Below are positions 474 to 59,421 of a stretch of DNA of 63,735 nucleotides, in pieces. The notes beneath the pieces were generated by a model. It had not been told where the DNA came from and ran no database searches. It saw only the letters and a program-made list of their open reading frames with translations. Where the stretch lies: the NCBI GenBank assembly GCA_035764005.1, contig DASTZZ010000078.1, positions 1 through 63,735 of the forward strand, read 5' to 3'. The stretch is from Terriglobales bacterium. GTDB taxonomy: Bacteria; Acidobacteriota; Terriglobia; Terriglobales; Acidobacteriaceae. Positions within the stretch are counted from its first letter, which is position 1. Every line of letters starts with the position of its first letter. A program made the position numbers and the translations under genes.

Positions 474-545
474 CAGAACCGCCTGCGGTAGCGGGCGGCG
501 CAGTTGAGACGTGAGATCAGAACCACCTGCGGCAGCGGTGGAGCA
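474..545. repeat. Degenerate copies of a GC-rich palindromic repeat
   Basis: The actA-actB gap contains GAACCGCCTGCGGTAGCGG and, ~45 nt later, a second related block (GAACCACCTGCGGCAGCGG). Both resemble the outer arm of the larger nested palindrome found complete at 22220, 23016, 35306 and 57904. Here the blocks are direct rather than inverted and the inner hairpin is missing, so this is a remnant. Because of it the earliest possible start of actB (GTG at 511) is unlikely to be the real one. Confidence 0.5.
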
Positions 546-609: not shown

Positions 610-3600
610 ATGGAGAATCACCCCGAGTTGGTGCAGATCAAAACCTCACCAGCGCATAAAACCAAGTTGACGCTCCAGCAGGTGCGCGAGCGGCTCTCCG
701 CCGCAACCGGCAAGGCATATTGGCGGAGCCTCGAAGAGCTGATCGATGAACCTGGCTTTGAAGAGCTCCTCGAAAACGAGTTTCCCGAGGGCGTTGCCGA
801 GCTGAATCGAGCAGAGGACGGCGTCTCGCGGCGCAACTTCCTGAAGCTCGCCGGCGCGTCGATGGCGCTCGCCGGACTTTCGGCCTGCACGCGGCAGCCA
901 GCCGAAGCGATCGTTCCTTACATTCGCCAGCCCGAAGATCTGATTCCGGGAATCCCGAAATTTTTCGCCACAACGATGCCATTCCCGACCGGCGGCATTC
1001 CGCTGCTGGTAAAAAGCAACGAATTTCGCCCGACGAAGATCGAAGGCAATCCGCAGCATCCCGCATCGAACGGCGCGACCGACGTTTTCGCCCAGGCTTC
1101 CGTTCTCGATCTTTATGATCCAGATCGTTCGACGAGTTCGAGCTATCGCGGCGAGCAGCGCAACTGGGGAGATTTTGCCGGGGCAGTCGATGTCTACAAG
1201 ACCAAAGCCGCCGCTTCGGGCGGCGCGGGCTTGCGCTTTCTGAGCGAGACGGTTGTATCGCCGACGCTCGCATCGCAGATTCAGACGGTTCTGAAGAAGT
1301 TCCCCAATGCGAAGTGGTATCAGTGGGATCCAGTCAATCGCGATGCGGCGCGAGCGGCTTCGCAGACGCTCTTTGGGCAATACGCGGAGCCGATTTACAA
1401 ATTCGAAGCCGCGAATGTCGTGCTCTCGCTCGATGCCGATTTCCTGAACACGTCGGCGTTCCCCGGATTCATTCCTTACTCGCGCGCGTTTACCAGCCGT
1501 CGCAAGCTCGCGGAAGATGCGCCGATGAGCCGGTTGTACTCGGTTGAGAGCTTCCACACCACCGCAGGCGCGCTCTCGGATAATCGTCTGCCGCTGCGCG
1601 CATCTGACATCGTGCCTTTCGCTGCCGCTCTTGCCAGCGCTCTTGGGGCGGGCGGCGTCTCAGCTCCAGCACAGGAGTGGACGCAGGATCAGCAGAAATT
1701 CCTTACCGCGCTCGCGAAAGATCTGAAGGCGAACTCCGGTGCATCCATCGTGCTGCCGGGAGAGCAGCAGCCGCCTGCACTGCACGTTCTTGCTGCGCAA
1801 ATCAATCAGGCACTCGGGAATGTCGGTAAGACGATCGTCTACACCGATCCAGTCGAACTCGTGCCGACCGACCAACTCGGCGGACTCAAGCAGCTTGTCG
1901 CCGACATGAACGCCGGCAAGGTGGATTTGCTGGTCATCCTCGAGGGCAATCCGGCGTACAACACGCCAGTTGATCTCGGCTTCGAGCTGGCGATGCCGAA
2001 AGTCAAAGAGATCGCCCACCTCTGCAACTACCGCAATGAAACCACGCGGATGGCGCAGTGGCACATTCACAGCGCGCATTATCTGGAAATGTGGAGCGAT
2101 GCGCGCGCCTACGACGGGACGTGCTCGATCGTTCAGCCGCTGATCGCTCCTCTTTACGGTGGGCGCAGCGCGCATGAAGTCGTCGCGCTGTTTACCGACA
2201 CGCCCGAGTTGACGCCCTACGACGCCGTCCGCGCCTATTGGAAGCAAAACGGGAAAGCTGCCGGCGACTTCGAGACCAACTGGCGCAAGTGGCTGCACGA
2301 CGGCATCATTCCCAATACGGCATCGCCGGTGAAATCTTTGGCTCCGCGCGGCGGAGCGCCACAGGTCAAGACGCTCGACAAGAGCGCCATGGAAGTTGTC
2401 TTCCGTCCCGATCCGACGATTTACGACGGACGCTACAACAACAATGCGTGGCTGCAGGAATGTCCCAAGCCGCTGATTCGTCTGGAGTGGGACAACGCCG
2501 CGATGATGAGTATCGATACTGCGGCGAAGCACGGCTGGAATCAGGAAGACATCCTGCGCATCACCGTCGATGGCCGCACCATCGAAGCGCCGGTGCTCGT
2601 CGTCTACGGCATGCCCGACAACAGCATCACGCTGCATCTGGGCTACGGGCGCTCGTTCTCCGGACGCGTCGGCAATGGATTCGGATTCAACGCCTACGAA
2701 ATTCGCGGCATGAATGCTCCGCTGATCGCAACCGCGGAAAAAGTCGAGAACAGCGGCGGCACTTACAAGCTGGCGGTGGTGCAGAACTTTACCTTGATCG
2801 ATCCGCACGGCGACTCCAAGCTGATGAATCGCTCGGTGCAGGGCGCCGAAGCGGTACGACGCGACATTATCCGCGTAGGCTCCTACGACGAGTACAAGAA
2901 GAACCCCGACTTCGCCCACGGCGACAGGTTCGAGGAAGCGCCGGAAGAAAACGATTCGCTGTACCCCGGCTACGACTACACCAAGGGATACCAGTGGGGC
3001 ATGGCGGTCGACATGAACTCCTGTGTTGGCTGCAACTCGTGCGTGATCGCCTGCCAGGCGGAGAATAATTCTCCCGTTGTGGGAAAGGAGCAGGTGAAGA
3101 TCGGTCGCGACATGAAGTGGCTGCGCATCGACGCCTACTACGCCGGCGATCTGCTCAATCCGCGCGCATTTATGCAGCCGATGATGTGCCAGCACTGCGA
3201 GAACGCGCCCTGCGAGCCGGTATGCCCGGTGGGCGCAACTGTGCACTCGCCCGAAGGTCTCAATGTCATGGTTTATAACCGCTGCGTGGGCACTCGCTAT
3301 TGCTCGAACAACTGCCCATATAAGGTGAGGCGGTTCAATTTCATGCTGTTCGCCGACTACACCACGCCAAGTCTCAAGCCGCTGCGCAATCCCGACGTTA
3401 CCGTTCGCAGCCGCGGCGTGATGGAGAAGTGCACCTACTGCCTGCAGCGCATCAATGCTGCGCGCATTCAGGCAGAGGTTGAAGAAACGCGGCTGCAGGA
3501 GACAGATCCCAAAGCGGAACGCAAGATTCGCGATGGCGAAGTAGTGACGGCATGCCAGCAGGCCTGCCCGACCGATGCCATCGTTTTCGGCAACATCAAC

Positions 3601-3774
3601 GATCCTAATAGCCGCGTGACCAAGATCAAGGCGCAGCCCCGTAATTACGGCGTACTGACGCAGATCAACACGCGGCCGCGAACGTCTTATATCGCGAATG
3701 TGGTGAATCCCAATATGGAAATCGGCGATCGTACCGACATGCCGGGCAAGACTTATATCGGAGCCGAATCGTAA
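610..3774 (+). CDS. actB: ActB, molybdopterin-oxidoreductase-like and iron-sulfur subunit of alternative complex III
   Basis: This is the large periplasmic subunit of the quinol:electron-acceptor oxidoreductase. A twin-arginine stretch (SRRNFLKLAG) lies near residue 73, after an N-terminal segment typical of ActB. The middle is the molybdopterin-oxidoreductase fold, which in known ActB proteins holds no molybdenum. From about residue 805 comes a four-cluster ferredoxin-like module: CVGCNSCVIAC, CQHCENAPCEPVCPVG, a CVGTRYCSNNC block and CTYC, with a last CQQAC. ATG 610 is preferred because GAGAGAGA lies just upstream; GTG 511 and ATG 571 are in frame but begin in repeat-like DNA. The stop overlaps the actC start by one base (TAATG), showing translational coupling. 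Confidence 0.93.
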   Translation: MENHPELVQIKTSPAHKTKLTLQQVRERLSAATGKAYWRSLEELIDEPGFEELLENEFPEGVAELNRAEDGVSRRNFLKLAGASMALAGLSACTRQPAEAIVPYIRQPEDLIPGIPKFFATTMPFPTGGIPLLVKSNEFRPTKIEGNPQHPASNGATDVFAQASVLDLYDPDRSTSSSYRGEQRNWGDFAGAVDVYKTKAAASGGAGLRFLSETVVSPTLASQIQTVLKKFPNAKWYQWDPVNRDAARAASQTLFGQYAEPIYKFEAANVVLSLDADFLNTSAFPGFIPYSRAFTSRRKLAEDAPMSRLYSVESFHTTAGALSDNRLPLRASDIVPFAAALASALGAGGVSAPAQEWTQDQQKFLTALAKDLKANSGASIVLPGEQQPPALHVLAAQINQALGNVGKTIVYTDPVELVPTDQLGGLKQLVADMNAGKVDLLVILEGNPAYNTPVDLGFELAMPKVKEIAHLCNYRNETTRMAQWHIHSAHYLEMWSDARAYDGTCSIVQPLIAPLYGGRSAHEVVALFTDTPELTPYDAVRAYWKQNGKAAGDFETNWRKWLHDGIIPNTASPVKSLAPRGGAPQVKTLDKSAMEVVFRPDPTIYDGRYNNNAWLQECPKPLIRLEWDNAAMMSIDTAAKHGWNQEDILRITVDGRTIEAPVLVVYGMPDNSITLHLGYGRSFSGRVGNGFGFNAYEIRGMNAPLIATAEKVENSGGTYKLAVVQNFTLIDPHGDSKLMNRSVQGAEAVRRDIIRVGSYDEYKKNPDFAHGDRFEEAPEENDSLYPGYDYTKGYQWGMAVDMNSCVGCNSCVIACQAENNSPVVGKEQVKIGRDMKWLRIDAYYAGDLLNPRAFMQPMMCQHCENAPCEPVCPVGATVHSPEGLNVMVYNRCVGTRYCSNNCPYKVRRFNFMLFADYTTPSLKPLRNPDVTVRSRGVMEKCTYCLQRINAARIQAEVEETRLQETDPKAERKIRDGEVVTACQQACPTDAIVFGNINDPNSRVTKIKAQPRNYGVLTQINTRPRTSYIANVVNPNMEIGDRTDMPGKTYIGAES

Positions 3775-5189
3775 TGGCAACCAAAGGCCTTACAGATCTG
3801 CCTCCATCACAGCGGCCATACCTGGTCGATCCTCCTGTGATTGCGCCGGGGCACACTTTCACCTCGGTGACCGAGAAGGTGATGCGCACCGTGCTCACGC
3901 CGCATACGCCGATCGGCTGGATCTTCGGAATTCTGGTGACCTTCGGCATCGTGCAGATTCTGATGGTCGCCGCCGGATACCTCTTCTATCAGGGTGTGGG
4001 CATTTGGGGCATCACGATCCCGTCCGCATGGGGATTCGCCATCGTCAACTTCGTGTGGTGGATCGGTATCGGCCACGCCGGAACGCTGATCTCCGCCATT
4101 CTGCTATTGCTCAAGCAGAGCTGGCGCACGTCTATCAATCGCGCTGCTGAAGCCATGACGCTCTTCGCCGTCATGTGCGCGGGCATGTTCCCGATTCTGC
4201 ACACCGGTCGTCCCTGGCTCGCTGCTTACTGGCTCTTCCCGCTGCCGTTGACGATGGGAGTGTGGCCGCAGTTCCGCAGCCCGCTTATCTGGGACGTTTT
4301 CGCCGTCTCGACGTACTTCACTGTCTCGCTGCTGTTCTGGTTTACCGGACTTATCCCGGATATCGCCACGCTGCGCGACAACGCCAAGCATCGCGTGACG
4401 CGAATCATCTACGGTGTGCTTTGCATGGGGTGGCGCGGATCGGCGCGGCACTGGTCGCGCTATGAGACCGCATACTTGTTGCTGGCTGGTCTTTCCACGC
4501 CGCTGGTGCTCTCAGTCCATACGGTGGTGAGCTGGGATTTCGCGATCGCCGTTCTGCCCGGCTGGCACACGACGATCTTCCCGCCATACTTCGTCGCTGG
4601 CGCGATCTATTCCGGCTTCGCGATGGTGCTCACGCTGCTGATTCCGATCCGCGCGGCCTACGGCATGAAGGACTTCATCACCACGCGTCACCTGCAGAAC
4701 ATGGCCAAGGTGATGCTCGCGACGGGATTGATCGTCGCCTACGGCTACTTCTTTGAAGCGTTCATGTCGTGGTACAGCGGAGACGTCTTCGAGATGTTCC
4801 AGTTCAAGAATCGCGCGACCGGTCCGCTGGGCGCGTTCTACTGGATGCTGATCACGTGCAACATCGTCCTGCCGCAATCGCTATGGTTCCGTAAAGTGCG
4901 CAGCTCGCCGGTGCTGCTGTGGATCGTCTCCATCATCGTCAACATCGGCATGTGGCTGGAGCGCTTCGTGATCGTCGTGATCAGTCTCCACCGTGACTTC
5001 CTGCCGTCATCGTGGGGAACTTATAAAGCCACGCGCTGGGACTATGCGACTTTCCTCGGCACGCTCGGATTCTTTACCTTTGCATTCCTGATGTTCATTC
5101 GCGTGTTGCCGATGATTTCCATTTTTGAACTGCGAGCCTTGCTCCCGCAATCAAGGCTGCAGCCGCTGCTCGAGGAGAACCTGCAATGA
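3774..5189 (+). CDS. actC: ActC, NrfD-type quinol-binding membrane subunit of alternative complex III
   Basis: This 471-residue polytopic protein has about ten hydrophobic helices and the NrfD/PsrC look (for example the FVWWIGIGHAGTLISA stretch near residue 88 and SWYSGD near residue 330). ActC forms one of the two membrane cores and is thought to bind menaquinol and provide a proton path. It starts on the TAATG junction with actB and ends on an ATGA junction with actD, so the four genes around it are translated as one unit. The cytoplasmic N-terminal tail of ~55 residues is rich in proline and charge. Confidence 0.93.
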   Translation: MATKGLTDLPPSQRPYLVDPPVIAPGHTFTSVTEKVMRTVLTPHTPIGWIFGILVTFGIVQILMVAAGYLFYQGVGIWGITIPSAWGFAIVNFVWWIGIGHAGTLISAILLLLKQSWRTSINRAAEAMTLFAVMCAGMFPILHTGRPWLAAYWLFPLPLTMGVWPQFRSPLIWDVFAVSTYFTVSLLFWFTGLIPDIATLRDNAKHRVTRIIYGVLCMGWRGSARHWSRYETAYLLLAGLSTPLVLSVHTVVSWDFAIAVLPGWHTTIFPPYFVAGAIYSGFAMVLTLLIPIRAAYGMKDFITTRHLQNMAKVMLATGLIVAYGYFFEAFMSWYSGDVFEMFQFKNRATGPLGAFYWMLITCNIVLPQSLWFRKVRSSPVLLWIVSIIVNIGMWLERFVIVVISLHRDFLPSSWGTYKATRWDYATFLGTLGFFTFAFLMFIRVLPMISIFELRALLPQSRLQPLLEENLQ

Positions 5190-13099: not shown

Positions 13100-13178
13100 G
13101 TCAGTACCGTTCGCGGTAGCGAATGGGTGCTTCTTTAGATATCAGATGAACCCATCCGCTACCGCGGACGGTACTGAC
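13100..13178. repeat. Palindromic element between coxC and coxD
   Basis: Two 29-nt arms (13100-13128 and 13150-13178) are inverted copies with two mismatches; they begin GTCAGTACCGT and end ATGGGT, with GCGGTAGCG in the middle. The spacer is 21 nt. Related elements are at 35196-35274 and, in a short form, 50479-50515. It would fold as a long hairpin in the cox mRNA and could limit read-through or degradation between subunits III and IV. Confidence 0.8.
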
Positions 13179-21455: not shown

Positions 21456-22103
21456 ATGACGTCAGCAGAACATTCGCAATTGAACTCCGAAATAAGACGC
21501 TCTGAGGAAACGGCAATCCAGACTGCCGAAGTTGTTGCGGTAGCTCCCATGTCCGCTCAGCTGCTTCTGCGACAAAGAATCAAGGAGTTAAACGAATTGA
21601 ACGACAGGCTTGCGCAGCTCGATCCGGACTATGCATCGCGAAGAGGCTCCCGGCGGGCGCTTGCGAAAGCGACCAGGACGTTGCTCCCGATCGAGGACAT
21701 ATGCCAGGGGTTAACGGACGTTGCCGACACCACCGAACAACTCGATCAGCAGGTTATGTTGCTCGAGGAAGGTCGCAAGATGGAACGTAAGGCCAGAAGG
21801 CTTGAAGCTCTGCGCGCAGCGCGCCTGGCGCCGCGCTGTGAGCACATCAAGTCCAATGCACAGCGATGTGGATCGCCGGCGGTCGGAGGGCAGAAGTTTT
21901 GTTTCTTTCACAACCTCGCGCGCAGTGGAGCGGTCGAGTTTCCAGTGCTGGAAGATCGGCGAGCCTTGCAGATCGCCATTCTGCGCGTTTGTGAGCGCCT
22001 GGCCAACGGCACGATCGCTCCGGCGAATGCCAAGGTTCTGCTGGAAGGGCTGACCATGGCTGAGAAGAATGCCGAGCGCATGGCATGTGAGCAAGAAGCA
22101 TGA
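21456..22103 (+). CDS. Hypothetical protein with coiled coil and C-x9-C-x10-C-x2-H zinc-finger-like motif
   Basis: The 215-residue protein has a charged, probably helical region (residues ~35-60 and ~90-125, rich in Glu, Arg and Leu), followed by C128, C138, C149 and H152 in RCEHIKSNAQRCGSPAVGG then FCFFH. The RC-GxPA-G--FC--H pattern is like small zinc-binding modules seen in several uncharacterised and phage-related proteins. The C-terminus is again helical. I do not recognise the family; DNA or RNA binding is a guess. It stands alone, with a candidate promoter 33 bases upstream and hairpins downstream. Confidence 0.72.
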   Translation: MTSAEHSQLNSEIRRSEETAIQTAEVVAVAPMSAQLLLRQRIKELNELNDRLAQLDPDYASRRGSRRALAKATRTLLPIEDICQGLTDVADTTEQLDQQVMLLEEGRKMERKARRLEALRAARLAPRCEHIKSNAQRCGSPAVGGQKFCFFHNLARSGAVEFPVLEDRRALQIAILRVCERLANGTIAPANAKVLLEGLTMAEKNAERMACEQEA

Positions 22104-22146
22104 GATCGGATGGGATCTCAGGAGATTAAATGAGATCGCGCGATGG

Positions 22147-22175
22147 GATATCTCGTCGGGGATCGACGAGATATC
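22147..22175. repeat. Perfect hairpin within GAGAT-rich spacer
   Basis: GATATCTCGTCG (22147-22158) and CGACGAGATATC (22164-22175) are perfect inverted repeats with a five-base loop. The surrounding 22104-22215 is built from degenerate GATGAGATC/GACGAGATC units, a simple-sequence-like tract following the gene stop. It has no U-tract. Confidence 0.65.
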
Positions 22176-22219
22176 TGATGGGATTTGACGAGATCAGATG
22201 AGATCGGACGAGACCAAAC

Positions 22220-22350
22220 GAACCGCCGGCGGTAGCCGGTGGGGCAGCCGCGGGTTTTGCGGCTGCGCTTCTTCTGGCACTCAGGTTCACTCTTGCTCGG
22301 TGCTGGGCGAAGCGCCCAGCACCGACCCACCGCCTATCGGCGGTGGTTCC
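22220..22350. repeat. Nested palindromic element, copy 1
   Basis: The outer arms begin GAACCGCCGGCGGTAGCC and end as its inverse (CTATCGGCGGTGGTTCC). Inside are a GCAGCCGC/GCGGCTGC hairpin around a GGGTTTT loop and a second hairpin, GGTGCTGGGCG/CGCCCAGCACC. It ends one base before the inverted stop codon of the YceH-like gene. Other copies are at 23016, 35306 and 57904. Confidence 0.85.
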
Positions 22351-22351
22351 G

Positions 22352-22993
22352 TCACTGCTTCTTGAGGTCACTGAACTCCTGACGCAGACTGTGCACTTCC
22401 CGCCGGAGTTCCGCTAATTCAGCTTCGAGTCTGCCGATGCGATCGCCATCGACCGAAGTTGCCGCTGGACTGGCAGACGTGATGGCATCCTGCTGAGGTT
22501 CGCCCGAGAGCAGATGCGCGTAGCGTGCTTCTTTGGTCCCCGGCTGGCGCTGCAAGATCTTTGCCAGGGGAGGCTCGCGTTCGATGAGGCGATGCAGCGC
22601 GGCTTCGACGTCGTCGAGGTGTTCGAAGCGGAACATGCGTTCGGTACGTCCGCGCAGCTCGCCGGGAGTTTGTGGACCGCGCAGCAACAGGACGCACAGT
22701 AACGCGGTTTCACCGCGCGTGAGATTAAACACCTCCTGCAGGCGGTGTTCGTACTTGATCACGCGGCTATCGGCGCCACGGGCAGGACCAGCCAGACGCT
22801 GATCCTGCAAGCCGGCGAGGGCGTCGCGTACAGCGTTCTCGCCAAGATTCATGACCGGCTCGCGATTGTTCTTCTGGTTGCATGCGTTCACCAGCGCGTT
22901 CAGCGACAGCGGATAGTAGTCGGGCGTGGTGATGTCTTTCTCGATCAGCGAGCCGAGAACGCGAGCTTCAACTGGAGTGAGATGAATCTCCAT
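22352..22993 (-). CDS. YceH-like protein (DUF480, UPF0502)
   Basis: The 213-residue protein opens MEIHLTPVEARVLGSLIEKD and contains the LSLNALVNACNQKNNREPV motif of the DUF480 family: two winged-helix domains (residues ~1-85 and ~90-170). A C-terminal coiled-coil segment follows (LEAELAELRREVHSLRQEF). The family is widespread and its function is unclear; a DNA-binding or regulatory role is suggested by the fold. It lies upstream of nothing on its strand, and palindromic repeats touch both its 5' and 3' flanks. Confidence 0.88.
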   Translation of the reverse strand: MEIHLTPVEARVLGSLIEKDITTPDYYPLSLNALVNACNQKNNREPVMNLGENAVRDALAGLQDQRLAGPARGADSRVIKYEHRLQEVFNLTRGETALLCVLLLRGPQTPGELRGRTERMFRFEHLDDVEAALHRLIEREPPLAKILQRQPGTKEARYAHLLSGEPQQDAITSASPAATSVDGDRIGRLEAELAELRREVHSLRQEFSDLKKQ

Positions 22994-23015: not shown

Positions 23016-23168
23016 CAATCACGAACAGAACCGCCGCCGGTAGACAGTGGGGCAGCCGCGTGTTTTGCGGCTGCGTTAATCGACAGTTCGCGCTTCAACG
23101 AGTCTCGGAGCTGGCCATCCGGCCATCTCCGACCCACCGGCTACCGGCGGCGGTTCTGTTCGTGATTG
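23016..23168. repeat. Nested palindromic element, copy 2, with 28-bp perfect arms reaching into a coding region
   Basis: The arms 23016-23043 and 23141-23168 are exact inverse copies (28 of 28). The inner GCAGCCGC/GCGGCTGC hairpin and a GAGCTGGCC/GGCC pair lie between. The right arm contains the stop codon and the last codons (HEQNRRR) of the histidine kinase on the minus strand. The outer part of the left arm is thus a copy of kinase-coding DNA. Confidence 0.88.
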
Positions 23169-25081
23169 GGCTGATCGAGAATCTGTCGAATACGTTCAGC
23201 GAGGTCGCGGAAGCGATAGGGCTTCTGCAGGAACGAAGCGTTCTCGATGGCTTCGACGATTGAGGTAGCGGCATAGCCAGAAGTGAAAAGAACGCGGACT
23301 TCCGGATGGAGTTCCTTAACTCGGCGCGCGAGATCGTCGCCGCGCATTTTAGGCATGACTACGTCGGTAATCATGAGGTCGATGGGTCTGGAATGACTCT
23401 GGCACAGAGCGAGCGCCTCATTCCCATTTGGGGCTTCGAGCACGTCGTAGCCGCGGGCGACAAGGGCCTCGCGAGTAAGTTCGCGCAAAGCTGCTTCATC
23501 CTCCACCAGCAGGATGGTACCGTGGTGCGTTTTTTCGCGCGTTGCCGCATGTTCGTCATGCGTAGACGGCTGCGCAATTCCGGAAGCCTGGGGGAGATAC
23601 ACCTCGAACGTGCTGCCCTGGCCCACTTCGCTTTGCACGGTGATGAAGCCTCCGCTTTGCTGCACGATGCCATAGACGATGGAAAGGCCAAGCCCAGTGC
23701 CCTTGCCGAATTCTTTGGTGGTGAAGAATGGTTCAAAAATTCGTTGCTGCGTATTGGCGTCCATTCCCATTCCGGAATCACGGATGGAGAGCAACACATA
23801 CTCTCCCGCCTGTACGCGATGCGCGCGCGCGGCCGAGTTCTGCGTATCGATAGTTGCATTCGCCGTGCGGATCTCCAGCACGCCGCCTTGAGGCATGGCG
23901 TCGCGAGCATTCACCACGATGTTCATGATCAGGTGCTCGAGCTCACCTCGATCCACTTTGATCGGCCGCAGCTGCGAATCGAAGGACGTGTTGAACTCAA
24001 TCGTCGGACCAATCACGCGCCGGAGCATCTCAGACATTTCTTCAACTACCTGATTCAGGTTCAGCACCGTCGCCTCGAGCAGTTGCTGGCGGCTGAATGC
24101 AAGCAGGTGGCGCGTAAGCGAGCCTCCACGCTCCACCGCTTGGCGGATGCCTTGCAGATAGCGGGCGATGGGATCGTCAGCATGGATCCGCATCAGCGAA
24201 AGCTCGCCGTAGCCGCCAATCACGTTGAGGAGATTGTTGAAATCATGAGCGATACCGCCGGCGAGACGTCCGACTGCGTCCATCTTCTGCGCATGGCGGA
24301 ATTGGCGCTCCATCTCGCGGCGCTCGGTCAGATCCTCGCAAATGCTGACCACGCCCAGCACACGGTTCTGAGAATCGCGAATGGGATCACGAGTCACGTA
24401 AAACACCTTGGTGCGGCCCGGCTTTGTGCGCAGCGCGACTTCTCCGTGCCACGAAGCGCCGGCTCGATCGGCTGCGCGGATCTGCAGCTGAAGAGCTGGA
24501 TCGATGATCAAAGCGGGAATACCGCCGATGGGCTTAATGCTTTCTATGTCGTATCCAGTGAGCTTGATGAAAGCAGGATTATGGTAGAGCGAATTTCCCG
24601 GCGGATCGGCGATCACGATGCCATCACTCGAGTGTTCGACGGCCGTACTGATTCGCGTGAGATTCTCTTCGGCGCGCTTGCGTTCCGTGATGTCGAGCAT
24701 CAGCCCGCGCAGCACAGGACGCTCCCCAGGATCGTTGACTACAGTGACGACATCGCGGAGCCACACGACGCGATTATCGGGTCCAACCATTCGGTACTCG
24801 AAAACATGATCGACGCCGCGCGCTGTGCAATCGCGGCAAAAGGCTGCGCACCATTCGACGTCGTCGGGATGCGTGTGCTTGCGCCAGAAATCAGGTTCGC
24901 TGATCCACTGCTCCGGACGAAACCCGAGGATGCGCTCGGCTTGCGGACTTACGAATCGAAATTGAAAAGTTTTGGCGTCGGCTTCCCAGATGATGGCATC
25001 GAGCGAGTTAATGAGCCGCGAGCAGAAGTTCGCGTCGAACGAATCTTCGCGAGGAGGCTCGATGTTCGGCTGACTGCTCAT
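23141..25081 (-). CDS. Hybrid sensor histidine kinase (PAS-PAS-HisKA-HATPase-receiver)
   Basis: The 646-residue protein has no membrane helix. A first PAS domain spans residues ~22-133 (HPDDVEW motif), a second ~140-255, then a HisKA domain with the phospho-acceptor H279 in GGIAHDFNNLL, a Bergerat ATPase (NARDAMPQGG, GMGMD, GKGTGLGLS) and a C-terminal receiver with the acceptor Asp in ITDVVMP. Cytosolic PAS input suggests redox, light or ligand sensing. No partner regulator is adjacent. The stop codon comes from the repeat element at 23016, which encodes the final Asn-Arg-Arg-Arg. Confidence 0.9.
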   Translation of the reverse strand: MSSQPNIEPPREDSFDANFCSRLINSLDAIIWEADAKTFQFRFVSPQAERILGFRPEQWISEPDFWRKHTHPDDVEWCAAFCRDCTARGVDHVFEYRMVGPDNRVVWLRDVVTVVNDPGERPVLRGLMLDITERKRAEENLTRISTAVEHSSDGIVIADPPGNSLYHNPAFIKLTGYDIESIKPIGGIPALIIDPALQLQIRAADRAGASWHGEVALRTKPGRTKVFYVTRDPIRDSQNRVLGVVSICEDLTERREMERQFRHAQKMDAVGRLAGGIAHDFNNLLNVIGGYGELSLMRIHADDPIARYLQGIRQAVERGGSLTRHLLAFSRQQLLEATVLNLNQVVEEMSEMLRRVIGPTIEFNTSFDSQLRPIKVDRGELEHLIMNIVVNARDAMPQGGVLEIRTANATIDTQNSAARAHRVQAGEYVLLSIRDSGMGMDANTQQRIFEPFFTTKEFGKGTGLGLSIVYGIVQQSGGFITVQSEVGQGSTFEVYLPQASGIAQPSTHDEHAATREKTHHGTILLVEDEAALRELTREALVARGYDVLEAPNGNEALALCQSHSRPIDLMITDVVMPKMRGDDLARRVKELHPEVRVLFTSGYAATSIVEAIENASFLQKPYRFRDLAERIRQILDQPNHEQNRRR

Positions 25082-34780: not shown

Positions 34781-35185
34781 TCACGCCGTTGCCGCCGGTG
34801 CCGGTGTCGCTTCCGCCGGTGCTGGCGCTGGTTCTGACGCCGAGCGCTTTACTTTCGTCGCGCGGATTTTAGCGATCTTCTCCAGCCGCTTTTGCTCTTC
34901 GTCCACGCGGACGCTGATGAACTTGATCACCGGTTCCGAGACGCGCAGACGGCGCTCAATCTCATGGATCGCTTTGCCATCGGCTTCGACGGTGAGAAGC
35001 ACGTAAAAACCATCCGTGAACTTGCGCACCAGATACGCGAGGCGTCTTTTGCCCATGCGTTCCACGTTTTTTACAGTTGCTCCAGCGTTAGTCGCCTGCG
35101 ATTCGAGGTTGGAGATCAGCTTGTCGAGATCTTCCTCCTGCAGGTCGGGCCGGATAATAAACATCACTTCGTATGTACGTTGCAT
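34781..35185 (-). CDS. rpsF: 30S ribosomal protein bS6
   Basis: The 134-residue protein opens MQRTYEVMFIIRPDLQEEDLD and has the ferredoxin-like bS6 fold with GKRRLAYLVRKFTDGFYVLL. The C-terminus has an Ala/Pro-rich tail of ~20 residues. It binds 16S rRNA with bS18. The bases before the ATG carry no clear ribosome-binding site because a palindrome begins ten bases upstream (35196). Confidence 0.96.
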   Translation of the reverse strand: MQRTYEVMFIIRPDLQEEDLDKLISNLESQATNAGATVKNVERMGKRRLAYLVRKFTDGFYVLLTVEADGKAIHEIERRLRVSEPVIKFISVRVDEEQKRLEKIAKIRATKVKRSASEPAPAPAEATPAPAATA

Positions 35186-35195
35186 TCTGTTTCGG

Positions 35196-35274
35196 TCGGT
35201 GCCGTCCTGGCTAGCCGGAGTGGGTGATCAACCCTCATCGGCTGACCCATCCGCTACCGCGGACGGTACTGACT
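35196..35274. repeat. Palindromic element, family of 13100
   Basis: The right arm (35246-35274, ACCCATCCGCTACCGCGG and on) is identical in its 29 bases to the right arm at 13150-13178. The left arm (35196-35226) is diverged (GTCGGTGCCGTCC). It sits just upstream of rpsF. Confidence 0.8.
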
Positions 35275-35305
35275 CTTCCTTCCTCTCTTTCGAAACTCGT
35301 CTACA

Positions 35306-35436
35306 GAACCGTCGGCGGTAGCCGATGGGGCAGCCGCTTGTTTTGCGGCTGCGCTTCACCTGGATTGCGTGAGCATCGCGTCTCCCGGAGCTGGCCTCCG
35401 GCCATGTCCGGCCCACTGGCTACCGCCAGCGGTTCC
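35306..35436. repeat. Nested palindromic element, copy 3
   Basis: GAACCGTCGGCGGTAGCC opens it and the inverted end is GGCTACCGCCAGCGGTTCC. Inside are the GCAGCCGC/GCGGCTGC hairpin and a GAGCTGGCC/GGCC pair. It ends one base before the inverted stop codon of pth. Confidence 0.88.
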
Positions 35437-35437
35437 G

Positions 35438-36010
35438 TTACTTCAGGCGTTGGTTGAAGCGATTCATCGCTGCAGCCACCCCATCTTTCAAAATCGCTTC
35501 AACGGCATCGGCTCCGCGATCGACTAAGTCGCTCGCCGCTTCGAGCTGCGATTTCTTGAACTGACCGAGCACAAACTTCGCGCCGTCGCGCACCGGATGA
35601 TCGGGCTGAATTCCCAATCTGACCCTGATGAACTCATCAGTTCCCAGCGAGCCGACCAGCGATTCGACGCCGTTATGCCCTGCCGTTCCGCCGCGCTGCT
35701 TAATGCGCAGCGTACCGAAAGGCAGATCAAGCTCGTCGTAAACCACGATCAATCCATTTGCCGGCTCGATCTCGAACTCATCGACCAGCTTGCGCACCGA
35801 GAGACCGCTCAGGTTCATGAACGTCTCTGGTTTGGCCAGCATGACCTCGTGTCCGGCGATCTTCGTTCGTGCGGTTGCCGCCTGACATCTGCGGCTCGCG
35901 ACATCGACGTTCGCCCCTTCCGCAAGGCGATCGATAGTCAGAAATCCGAGATTGTGCGGCGTGAACTGGTACTCGATACCCGGATTGCCGAGACCGACAA
36001 CCAGCTTCAC
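35438..36010 (-). CDS. pth: Peptidyl-tRNA hydrolase
   Basis: MKLVVGLGNPGIEYQFTPHNLGF contains the catalytic histidine motif; KPETFMNLSG and the GGTAGHNGVESL motif follow. Pth frees tRNA from stalled peptidyl-tRNAs. The 190-residue length is usual. It starts two bases after rplY stops, so the two are coupled; the rplY-pth pair is common. Confidence 0.96.
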   Translation of the reverse strand: MKLVVGLGNPGIEYQFTPHNLGFLTIDRLAEGANVDVASRRCQAATARTKIAGHEVMLAKPETFMNLSGLSVRKLVDEFEIEPANGLIVVYDELDLPFGTLRIKQRGGTAGHNGVESLVGSLGTDEFIRVRLGIQPDHPVRDGAKFVLGQFKKSQLEAASDLVDRGADAVEAILKDGVAAAMNRFNQRLK

Positions 36011-57891: not shown

Positions 57892-57903
57892 CCCAAGACA
57901 ACG

Positions 57904-58032
57904 GAACCGCCGGCGGTAGCCGGTGGGCAGCCGCGTGTTTTGCGGCTGCGTTTTTCTTTATGTATACGGCATCGTTTGCCCGGAGCTGGCCATTCGGCCC
58001 ATCTCCGGCCCAGCGGCTACCGCCGCCGGTTC
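57904..58032. repeat. Nested palindromic element, copy 4, with terminator-like inner hairpin
   Basis: It begins GAACCGCCGGCGGTAGCC and ends GGCTACCGCCGCCGGTTC. The inner GCAGCCGC-GTGTTTT-GCGGCTGC hairpin is followed by GTTTTTCTTT, a good terminator for dtd. It lies between two convergent genes, its right end 13 bases from the cca stop. Confidence 0.9.
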
Positions 58033-58044
58033 TGTCGATTGTTG

Positions 58045-59421
58045 CTAGCGTGCGAAATTCGTTTCCACAAACGAAATCGCCTCTTCCCGCGTGTGTAACG
58101 TGCCTTCGAGTTGCGCGTCCTCGACAGCCTGCAGCATGGTGCGGAATTGCGGGCCGGGTTTCCAGCCGTGCTGAATGAGATCATTGCCGCTGATGAGCGG
58201 TGCCGGCCTCATTTCTTCTTCAGGCGTGCTCTCCAGCTTTTCCCGCACGAATTCGTACAGTGAGAGATCACGATGGCTGCCGGTGCAATCGAGTTTGTGA
58301 AGTTCGAGGTGCTCCTCAAAATGAGGCAGGCGCATAAAGCGTTTCAGCGTTGACTCTTTCATCTTCTTCGCGTCGCCAAAACGCATGTGATTGGCGACGA
58401 GCGCCGCAATCTGCTCAGTGGCTTCGTTCGAAAATCGTAGACGGTGGCAGATTTCCTCTGCCATGCGCGTTCCCACTTCGGCATGGCCGTCGAAGCGGAT
58501 ACGATCCGGTGCCACACGAAACGTAGGTGGCTTGCCGACATCGTGGAGCAAAACTCCCCAAGCCAAGGACTTCGAGCAGCCTTTTTCCAACCCTGCTAGG
58601 AGCAGCAAAGTGTGGATCCACACATCGCCTTCCGGATGGTACTGCGGCGGCTGCGCGACGCCTTTCATTGCGCTTATCTCCGGTAAAACCTCGATCAGCA
58701 GACCGGTTGCGTCCAGCAGTTCAAAGCATCGGCGCGCGTGTCCCTCGGTGAGCATTTTGTCGAGTTCATCGCGGATGCGCTCGCGGCTCACCTGGTGAAT
58801 GTCTCGCGCAAGTTCGCGGATCGCGTTCATGGTCCGCGATTCGATTTCGTAACCGAGGCGGGCCGCGAAGCGCACTGCTCGCATCATGCGTAACTTGTCT
58901 TCACGAAACCGCGTGCCCGGATCGCCAATGGTGCGGACAATCCTGCGTTCCAGATCGGAACGACCGCCAACGAAATCGAGGACCTCGTTCCTTATTGGAT
59001 CGAGCAGCAAGCCATTAATGGTGAAATCGCGGCGTTGAACGTCTTCTTCAGCCGTGTCGGAATAGCGAACCGCGTCGGGATGGCGGCCATCGCTGTAACC
59101 GACATCGCTGCGGTAGGTTGCGACCTCTACCTGAATTGGAGTAGCGTCGCGTGTTCCATTGGGACGAATGAGCACTAGAATCACGCCGAATTGAGCGCCG
59201 ACGGCGACAGTGTCAGCAAAAAGCGAGAGCACATCGTCTGGCCTGGCGCTGGTGGTGATGTCGTAGTCCTGAGGCGCAACGCCGAGCAGCAGATCGCGAA
59301 CGCAGCCTCCAACGAAATACGCGGAGTGACCAGCCGCACGAATCCGTTCCAAAACGGAAAGAGCCGCAACGCGCGCTTTTTGAGAGCGGGCATGTGAAGC
59401 CGAAATGGTTTCGGTGGTCAT
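58045..59421 (-). CDS. cca: CCA-adding enzyme / poly(A) polymerase family
   Basis: The 458-residue protein has the class II nucleotidyltransferase motif GGCVRDLLLG with catalytic acidic residues in DYDIT, followed by RRDFTINGL, the RxxDKLRMMRAVRFAARLG neck and an HD domain (LLHDVGKPPTF). The HD domain is typical of the form that can also process damaged 3' ends. It repairs or completes tRNA 3' CCA ends; the tRNA at 38118 has an encoded CCA. It faces tsaD divergently. Confidence 0.93.
   Translation of the reverse strand: MTTETISASHARSQKARVAALSVLERIRAAGHSAYFVGGCVRDLLLGVAPQDYDITTSARPDDVLSLFADTVAVGAQFGVILVLIRPNGTRDATPIQVEVATYRSDVGYSDGRHPDAVRYSDTAEEDVQRRDFTINGLLLDPIRNEVLDFVGGRSDLERRIVRTIGDPGTRFREDKLRMMRAVRFAARLGYEIESRTMNAIRELARDIHQVSRERIRDELDKMLTEGHARRCFELLDATGLLIEVLPEISAMKGVAQPPQYHPEGDVWIHTLLLLAGLEKGCSKSLAWGVLLHDVGKPPTFRVAPDRIRFDGHAEVGTRMAEEICHRLRFSNEATEQIAALVANHMRFGDAKKMKESTLKRFMRLPHFEEHLELHKLDCTGSHRDLSLYEFVREKLESTPEEEMRPAPLISGNDLIQHGWKPGPQFRTMLQAVEDAQLEGTLHTREEAISFVETNFAR

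Follow-up and report, generated by a model that had tools for sequence, protein, structure and literature searches.

A REPIN-like doublet of REP-type hairpins at gene ends in a Terriglobales genome, most likely mobilised by a class-3 HUH/Y1 transposase

A stretch of 63,735 nucleotides from a Terriglobales bacterium, hereafter called the window, contains a palindromic element that recurs at the 3' ends of genes, and its position raises the question of whether it belongs to the transcripts that end there, as terminator or stabiliser of the mRNA, or is a mobile sequence that settles beside stop codons. The reading that we favour, with a probability of roughly 0.8, is that the element is a REPIN-like doublet of REP-type hairpins, most likely mobilised by a class-3 HUH/Y1 transposase, the placement at gene ends being included in this explanation. 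The identity as a class-3-type doublet follows from a transposase gene lying between two copies, from feet of the CnGA type and from the repeats shared by the flanks of related transposase genes.

The members of the family are ~135 nt long and are built, in this order, of an arm, inner hairpin 1, a variable spacer, inner hairpin 2 and an inverted arm (Table 1). Inner hairpin 1 is GCAGCCGC/GCGGCTGC, and inner hairpin 2, which had been overlooked when the repeat was originally noticed, is CCGGAG...CTCCGG. The original prediction had listed four copies in 36 kb, each with the arm sequence and the GCAGCCGC/GCGGCTGC hairpin; all four are present in the window, the start of the second having been set about 10 nt too low, but the family is far from limited to them. 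In fact, a covariance model built from 26 copies and run on the whole genome (5.10 Mb, 131 contigs) gave 137 rows at E<=1, corresponding to at least 100 distinct genome places after removal of opposite-strand duplicates, and at least 74 of these places score 60 bits or more; the counts are lower bounds, 150 of 3500 first-look candidates having been scored. The patterns are specific to these places: the inner-hairpin pattern has 4 matches in the window at <=3 mismatches and 0 in 100 shuffles, and the arm pattern has 8, including a single arm at 476, with a shuffled mean of 0.09. Between pth and rpsF, where two elements are found, the spacing is 252 nt here and 12, 82, 117 and 188 nt in four congeners. 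A known RNA family was ruled out as the identity of the element, a tRNA being the sole match in the window at the Rfam gathering score.

Table 1. Positions of the element copies, their parts and the related features. Positions without a locus or contig name refer to the window; an offset of -1 means that the end of the element coincides with the last base of the stop codon.
Feature	Position	Strand	Remarks
Copy 1	22217..22352	+	end on the side of inner hairpin 2 makes the TGA stop, offset -1, of a DUF480/yceH-like gene, 22352-22993 (-)
Copy 2	23025..23159	+	histidine-kinase gene, 23141-25081 (-), stops at a TAG within the right arm, offset -19, tail EQNRRR
Copy 3	35303..35438	+	forms the TAA stop of pth (35438-36010, -) at offset -1; rpsF (34781-35185, -) lies on the other side
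Copy 4	57901..58035	+	lies where a dtd-like gene (stop 57891, +) and cca (58045-59421, -) converge, each stop 9 nt from the element
Left arm, example (copy 4)	57902..57927	+	foot CGGA; hairpin CC-G-CCGGC / GGTA / GCCGG-T-GG
Inner hairpin 1 (copy 4)	57927..57949	+	GCAGCCGC/GCGGCTGC, then GTTTTTCTTT on the + strand
Inner hairpin 2 (copy 4)	57980..58008	+	CCGGAGCTGGCC...GGCCCATCTCCGG; paired changes across copies keep the stem
Right arm, example (copy 4)	58009..58034	-	inverted, foot CAGA
Single arm of the same kind	474..499	+	CAGAACCGCCTGCGGTAGCGGGCGGC, directly 3' of the TAA of a predicted ORF, 15-473, offset -1
Sister-family doublet, CAGTACC type	13101..13177	.	~77 nt, the two inner hairpins absent; arms at 13102 and 13151
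Sister-family element beside copy 3	35196..35272	.	arm 35246-35271 (-) intact, other arm degenerate
P0001 transposase gene	L073 3125-3628		flanking copies at 2946-3129 and 3644-3846
Second class-3-like gene	L295, G000:C25:75131-75562		sister-family arms (CAGTACC) on its flanks

The element had been described as a nested palindrome, and the arms are indeed inverted around an inner hairpin; covariation, however, argues for reading the outer arms as two separate hairpins. This distinction bears on a second identity, a MITE of a DDE transposon with long terminal inverted repeats pairing together, which would agree with free-energy folding, since this favours a single long stem joining both arms, and with the arms being inverted repeats of ~26 nt. 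Among the 26 copies, covariation amounts to 0.211 for each arm folded on its own, a value as high being reached in 0/500 shuffles, and to 0.103 for arm-with-arm pairing (9/500). In a 65-copy alignment, Watson-Crick pairs are found in 49/62 cases at positions 13-20 of the left arm (28 expected) and in 55/61 at positions 118-125 of the right arm (30 expected), whereas positions 13-125, across the arms, pair in 23/61 (29.5 expected). It is the own hairpin, at the expense of the cross-arm pair, that the most variable arm positions preserve; the pairs 7-131, 9-129, 14-124 and 23-115, which join the two arms, likewise lie above independence, as a MITE would have it, so the arms are not wholly independent. 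Summed over all positions, Watson-Crick pairs are 797/998 for arm-with-arm pairing and 757/990 for the own hairpins, this total being slightly lower because the own hairpins count a fixed mismatch, without which it becomes 746/865. The 65-copy alignment was fitted to the arm-with-arm model, a bias that runs against the own-hairpin conclusion. Consequently, the arm-with-arm stem was discarded as the main conserved structure, its covariation falling below that of the own hairpins. Furthermore, none of 16 registers shows an outstanding target duplication of 2-8 nt, on which ground the DDE MITE was rejected, and the transposase gene enclosed by two copies belongs to HUH/Y1 rather than DDE; we consider this identity extremely improbable.

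The arms are best explained, from their sequence and its variation, as one hairpin each, with a foot C[AG]GAA followed by CC-G-NNNNN, a GGTA loop and NNNNN-T-GG. The foot reads CAGAA or CGGAA in 53/65 left arms and 58/65 right arms, and a G.T mismatch, read inward, is kept in both (47/65 and 52/65). In the congeners G002, G003 and G004 and in G051, a genome of the same class and another family, five stem letters vary while pairing persists: among the arms listed from these four genomes, at least 47 of them distinct, on average 4.28 of the 5 pairs are formed, the shuffled mean being 3.08 and the shuffled maximum 3.49.

A candidate for the enzyme acting on these arms comes from the 12 Y1_Tnp matches of the same genome, of which one intact gene, P0001, lies directly between two copies of the element (Table 1). 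Its product has 167 aa and the motifs NHVH and YVVNGQ, passes the Pfam Y1_Tnp cut-off of 23 narrowly, with 24.2, and remains far short of that of NCBIfam REP_Tyr_transpos (25.1 bits, cut-off 80). When it is aligned with 16 relatives, N92, H93, H95, Y154, Q159 and the GTWLHG motif are invariant in 17/17 sequences, and conservation extends from about residue 6 to 159; a search of solved structures with the profile of the transposase family gave none at E<=0.01. Within the best 80 of 295 relatives, 76 have titles naming Acidobacteriota or Planctomycetota, and 71 of 79, one locus being too short for the flank test, show a shared repeat on both sides of the gene, compared with 4/61 for control windows located 1.1-1.45 kb away. 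The shared repeats of these 71 relatives contain C[AG]G[AT]ACC in 48 cases and the looser C.G[AT]A.C in 69. A loose scan for hairpins with a foot separates the loci moderately, with both sides positive in 31/63 class-3 relatives vs 10/63 at 1.1-1.3 kb. In the mechanism that these data suggest, the transposase would bind the arms as single-stranded hairpins, would cut beside the foot and would paste the doublet elsewhere.

Eleven further Y1 genes are present in the genome: 7 have different shared repeats, one of just 16 nt, 2 have none, and the remaining 2 include the second class-3-like gene. Several of the further Y1 transposases at L061-L071 have their own distinct inverted repeats, which suggests more REP-like families. 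The second class-3-like gene, on contig C25, departs from its frame ahead of the expected Y motif and looks broken, or else reflects an assembly error. At G000:C62:10199-10682, a class-3-like transposase seems to have decayed, its match being broken into three pieces.

Transposases flanked by REPs have been described (Nunvar et al., 2010, PMC2817692), and the class to which P0001 appears closest is class 3 of the TnpA-Y1 proteins, a rare HUH-Y family introduced in one paragraph and perhaps standing midway between REP systems and the IS200/IS605 transposons; its members have NHVH and Y....Q motifs, and the gene lies between structures with a CnGA foot (Quentin et al., 2018, PMC6006769). In that description the structures were found by manual inspection, about 600 of them in Solibacter usitatus, and experiments are called for. 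The present system shares with it NHVH, Y....Q, a core of ~155 aa, a conserved N-terminus, CnGA-footed flanks, high copy number and occurrence in Acidobacteria and Planctomycetes; it departs from the motif as printed there, P0001 having YVVNGQ and not YV[VI][AENY]EQ. It goes beyond that paragraph in the covariation of the arms, the doublet with two inner hairpins, the two transposase-arm pairs in one genome and the stop-codon register described below (PMC6006769). Like REPINs and BIMEs (Bertels and Rainey, 2011, PMC3116915; PMC6006769), the element holds two inverted REP hairpins within one repeated unit; unlike them, and unlike canonical REPs of class 2 RAYTs, it has no GT[AG]G foot, the foot being C[AG]GAA and the GTA lying within the GGTA loop, and it carries two extra conserved hairpins between the arms. 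A further likeness is to the TIRYT/TIRtrons, including ORF1552 of Koribacter versatilis, in which an acidobacterial Y1 transposase is flanked by a family of long inverted repeats (Di Nocera et al., 2013, PMC3733652), but 20/26 TIRYTs are placed in subclass 2.1, with other motifs (PMC6006769), and the arms here are self-complementary.

Beyond this genome, a general arm pattern finds 208 arms in the genome itself, both families included, where the reversed-pattern control finds 2. The five congeners contain 80, 76, 52 (G003), 8 (G004) and 31 arms and G051 contains 39, so that arms exceed the control in 6/6 genomes of the genus and in G051; the remaining 54 genomes have at most 2 arms each, as in the reversed-pattern control. 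Class-3 hits at E<=0.001 occur in 7/61 genomes, 4 of them among the genus's 6. A simple one-to-one rule is contradicted by arms without such a hit (G003, G004 and G051) and by divergent class-3 hits with at most 2 arms (G054 and G059). The 39 arms of G051 (L329-L348) have a longer fixed end, TTGTCAG. In the genome under study, a sister family of CAGTACC type has 64 exact arms listed and its probable class-3 gene on C25. GT precedes the foot in 89-100% of the arms in G002, G051 and the sister family, G003 is mixed, and the main family has RA at these two bases (A 95%, R 87%).

The placement at gene ends, which had been proposed from the window, is borne out both there and across the genome. The right ends of the four copies are all found at minus-strand stops, with offsets -1, -19, -1 and +9 for the DUF480/yceH-like, histidine-kinase, pth and cca genes, respectively (Table 1). 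Genes were called elsewhere by a simple codon-usage script in place of a standard annotator, 573 in 655,866 bases. With these calls, 47/74 copies have an end <=20 nt from a stop, above all three placement controls: uniform intergenic placement gives 6.5 (maximum 16), placement over gaps 26.4 (maximum 39), and placement restricted to the gap that a copy occupies 30.4 of 70 (maximum 40), for which the observed value is 46 of 71. The bias resolves to a single base. At offset -1 there are 23/148 ends, 17 TAA and 6 TGA, vs about 2 ends at each offset from 0 to +10, and in the null no offset gathers more than 5 ends; under stricter arm matching in the same stretches, 13/98 arms stand at -1. Eight genes stop at position 19 of the element (offset -19; 7 TAG, 1 TAA), in the same frame as -1, and one end, at offset -5, belongs to the transposase gene itself. 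With this exception, the ORFs that enter an arm end just at -1 or -19.

This register is not a trait of the class as a whole, a possibility that was discarded: it is absent from the sister family (0/33 and 0/13 arms, in partly overlapping sets), from G051 (0/33), from G003 (0/29) and from G002 (0/18). In these five sets, 15, 7, 12, 14 and 13 arms, respectively, face a stop, and three use the TAG at -19.

A register of this kind would be expected if, as we propose, the gene-end position reflects insertion at or just past stop codons together with the loss of harmful insertions, and if the terminal (R)A turned a host T into TAA or TGA. The placement could also have arisen, for an element of the same identity, from insertions that occur at random, without a preference for stops, and are then purged from coding sequence and promoters, and to this we give only slightly less than even odds. 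Gaps are short (median 89.5 nt with the element removed), uniform placement within the own gap already accounts for 30.4 of 70, and ends away from stops have no preference for a T before RA; moreover, the -1 and -19 stops belong to an early-stop frame, as if insertions in other frames had been purged. However, purging of random insertions does not predict the excess of ends at -1 over the neighbouring offsets, where the null maximum is 5, and insertions into ordinary codons should, we infer, favour -19 over -1, whereas the counts are 8 and 23.

Comparison with orthologs speaks on the same point. Of the 23 genes at -1, 19 could be compared: 9 of them stop exactly where their orthologs do, 2 differ by at most one codon, and 8, which count against our reading, by two or more; a stop position kept in 9/19 genes is again not what purging from coding regions would produce. 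The six comparable genes out of the eight at -19 all have a QNRRR-like tail that is missing from the orthologs (6/6). Of 51 C-terminal segments, 28 were compared (8/8 at -19 and 20/23 at -1), and 3 of these 28, the kinase and two others, have no congener match at >=55% identity. An arm occurs within 200 nt past the stop at 0/4 yceH ends and at 0/70 congener gene ends, 67 of them distinct, the 70 including 3 pth loci counted twice, one paralogous hit and one pth locus with an internal stop. This absence would fit a doublet that moves as a unit.

Which partner supplies the bases of the stop codon can be read from its composition. The stops of 392 sampled genes with no element within 60 nt are TGA in 159 cases, TAG in 125 and TAA in 108, and under this usage the 17:6 ratio of TAA to TGA at offset -1 has a one-sided P=0.0012. 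Element ends elsewhere are AA in 66 cases and GA in 17. Because 17:6 matches these ends and departs from the sampled stops, it seems from the sequences that the host gives the T and the element supplies the RA of TAA or TGA; a plain host preference for an RA target was dismissed on the same figures. In addition, the arm contains an in-frame TAG 18 nt beyond the terminal stop, so that, with the RA of the element, a working stop would survive insertion at a stop codon.

RA before the foot provides two bases of TAA or TGA, while GT would provide just the G of TAG, and no GT-ended arm was seen to supply the G of a TAG. Since RA is found here and GT in the sister family, G051 and G002, and since the register is seen in the RA-ended family, we tentatively consider, with the odds somewhat against it, that one lineage exchanging GT for RA gained a safe niche, inserting after the T of a stop and rebuilding TAA or TGA, with the TAG as insurance. 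The lack of a preferred T before RA away from stops places the excess at stops outside what this idea accounts for. A related behaviour is described for the GTAG REPs, which lie near ORF 3' ends and whose termini often give a TAG stop (Di Nocera et al., 2013, PMC3733652). The present elements resemble them in lying downstream of genes, mostly unidirectional or convergent, close to the ends of ORFs; there the terminal GTAG is the stop, whereas here RA completes TAA or TGA at 23 ends, and, unlike what is reported in those passages, an internal TAG is used at 7 of the 8 ends at -19 and a TAA at the eighth (PMC3733652). In the openly searchable REP, TIRYT and class-3 literature, no description was found of an RA-ended, stop-rebuilding class-3 element.

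The position at gene ends had also suggested a role as terminator or stabiliser, that is, a domesticated 3'-end RNA element selected to end transcripts or to protect the mRNA as a 3' hairpin. REPs of E. coli are known for Rho-dependent effects and for stabilising mRNA, and a role of this kind here would suit the finding that both strands fold very stably (z -6.9 to -9.9) and an enrichment in convergent gaps, which make up 25/70 of those with an element vs 68/443 of those without. The T-tract noticed in copy 4 exists, at 57950, but on the + strand, where it could serve the dtd-like gene and not cca; the terminator scan finds this one site, although shuffles give a mean of 1.2. The terminator role as such found no support. 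A T-tract (at least 5 T among the 8 nt that follow inner hairpin 1) is found in 2/59 copies, the 59 being those of the 65 aligned copies ungapped there, and, the element being asymmetric, stops show no side bias, lying near the side of inner hairpin 1 in 29 copies and of inner hairpin 2 in 31; a general intrinsic terminator was rejected on these two counts. The lack of arms at the congener gene ends also goes against selection for a 3'-end function, and a G.T kept in the same inward reading in both arms is more easily explained by an enzyme that reads the DNA strand than by an mRNA, which is read in one direction. We therefore regard such an RNA element as unlikely, and the reading as REP-type hairpins with a cognate-looking transposase explains more of the anatomy than a terminator does.

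The anatomy of the element is worked out here through covariation, two transposase-arm pairs are found within one genome, and the bias to gene ends narrows to one base of the stop codon, a register open to direct testing. The system offers a concrete route by which a repeat may settle at gene ends with the gene left unbroken, and it would explain the short additional C-termini (QNRRR), which would pass for ordinary protein sequence in an annotation. If the exchange of GT for RA did open a niche, the host's translation stop signal would be what this transposable element has adapted to.

Two other repeats were seen near these loci. Degenerate GATGAGATC-like repeats occupy positions 22100-22215 of the window, between a + strand ORF and copy 1, and short palindromic repeats resembling GGCGTTAACGCCG lie at L073 4095-4240, ~1 kb upstream of the apparent start of a 16S rRNA gene.
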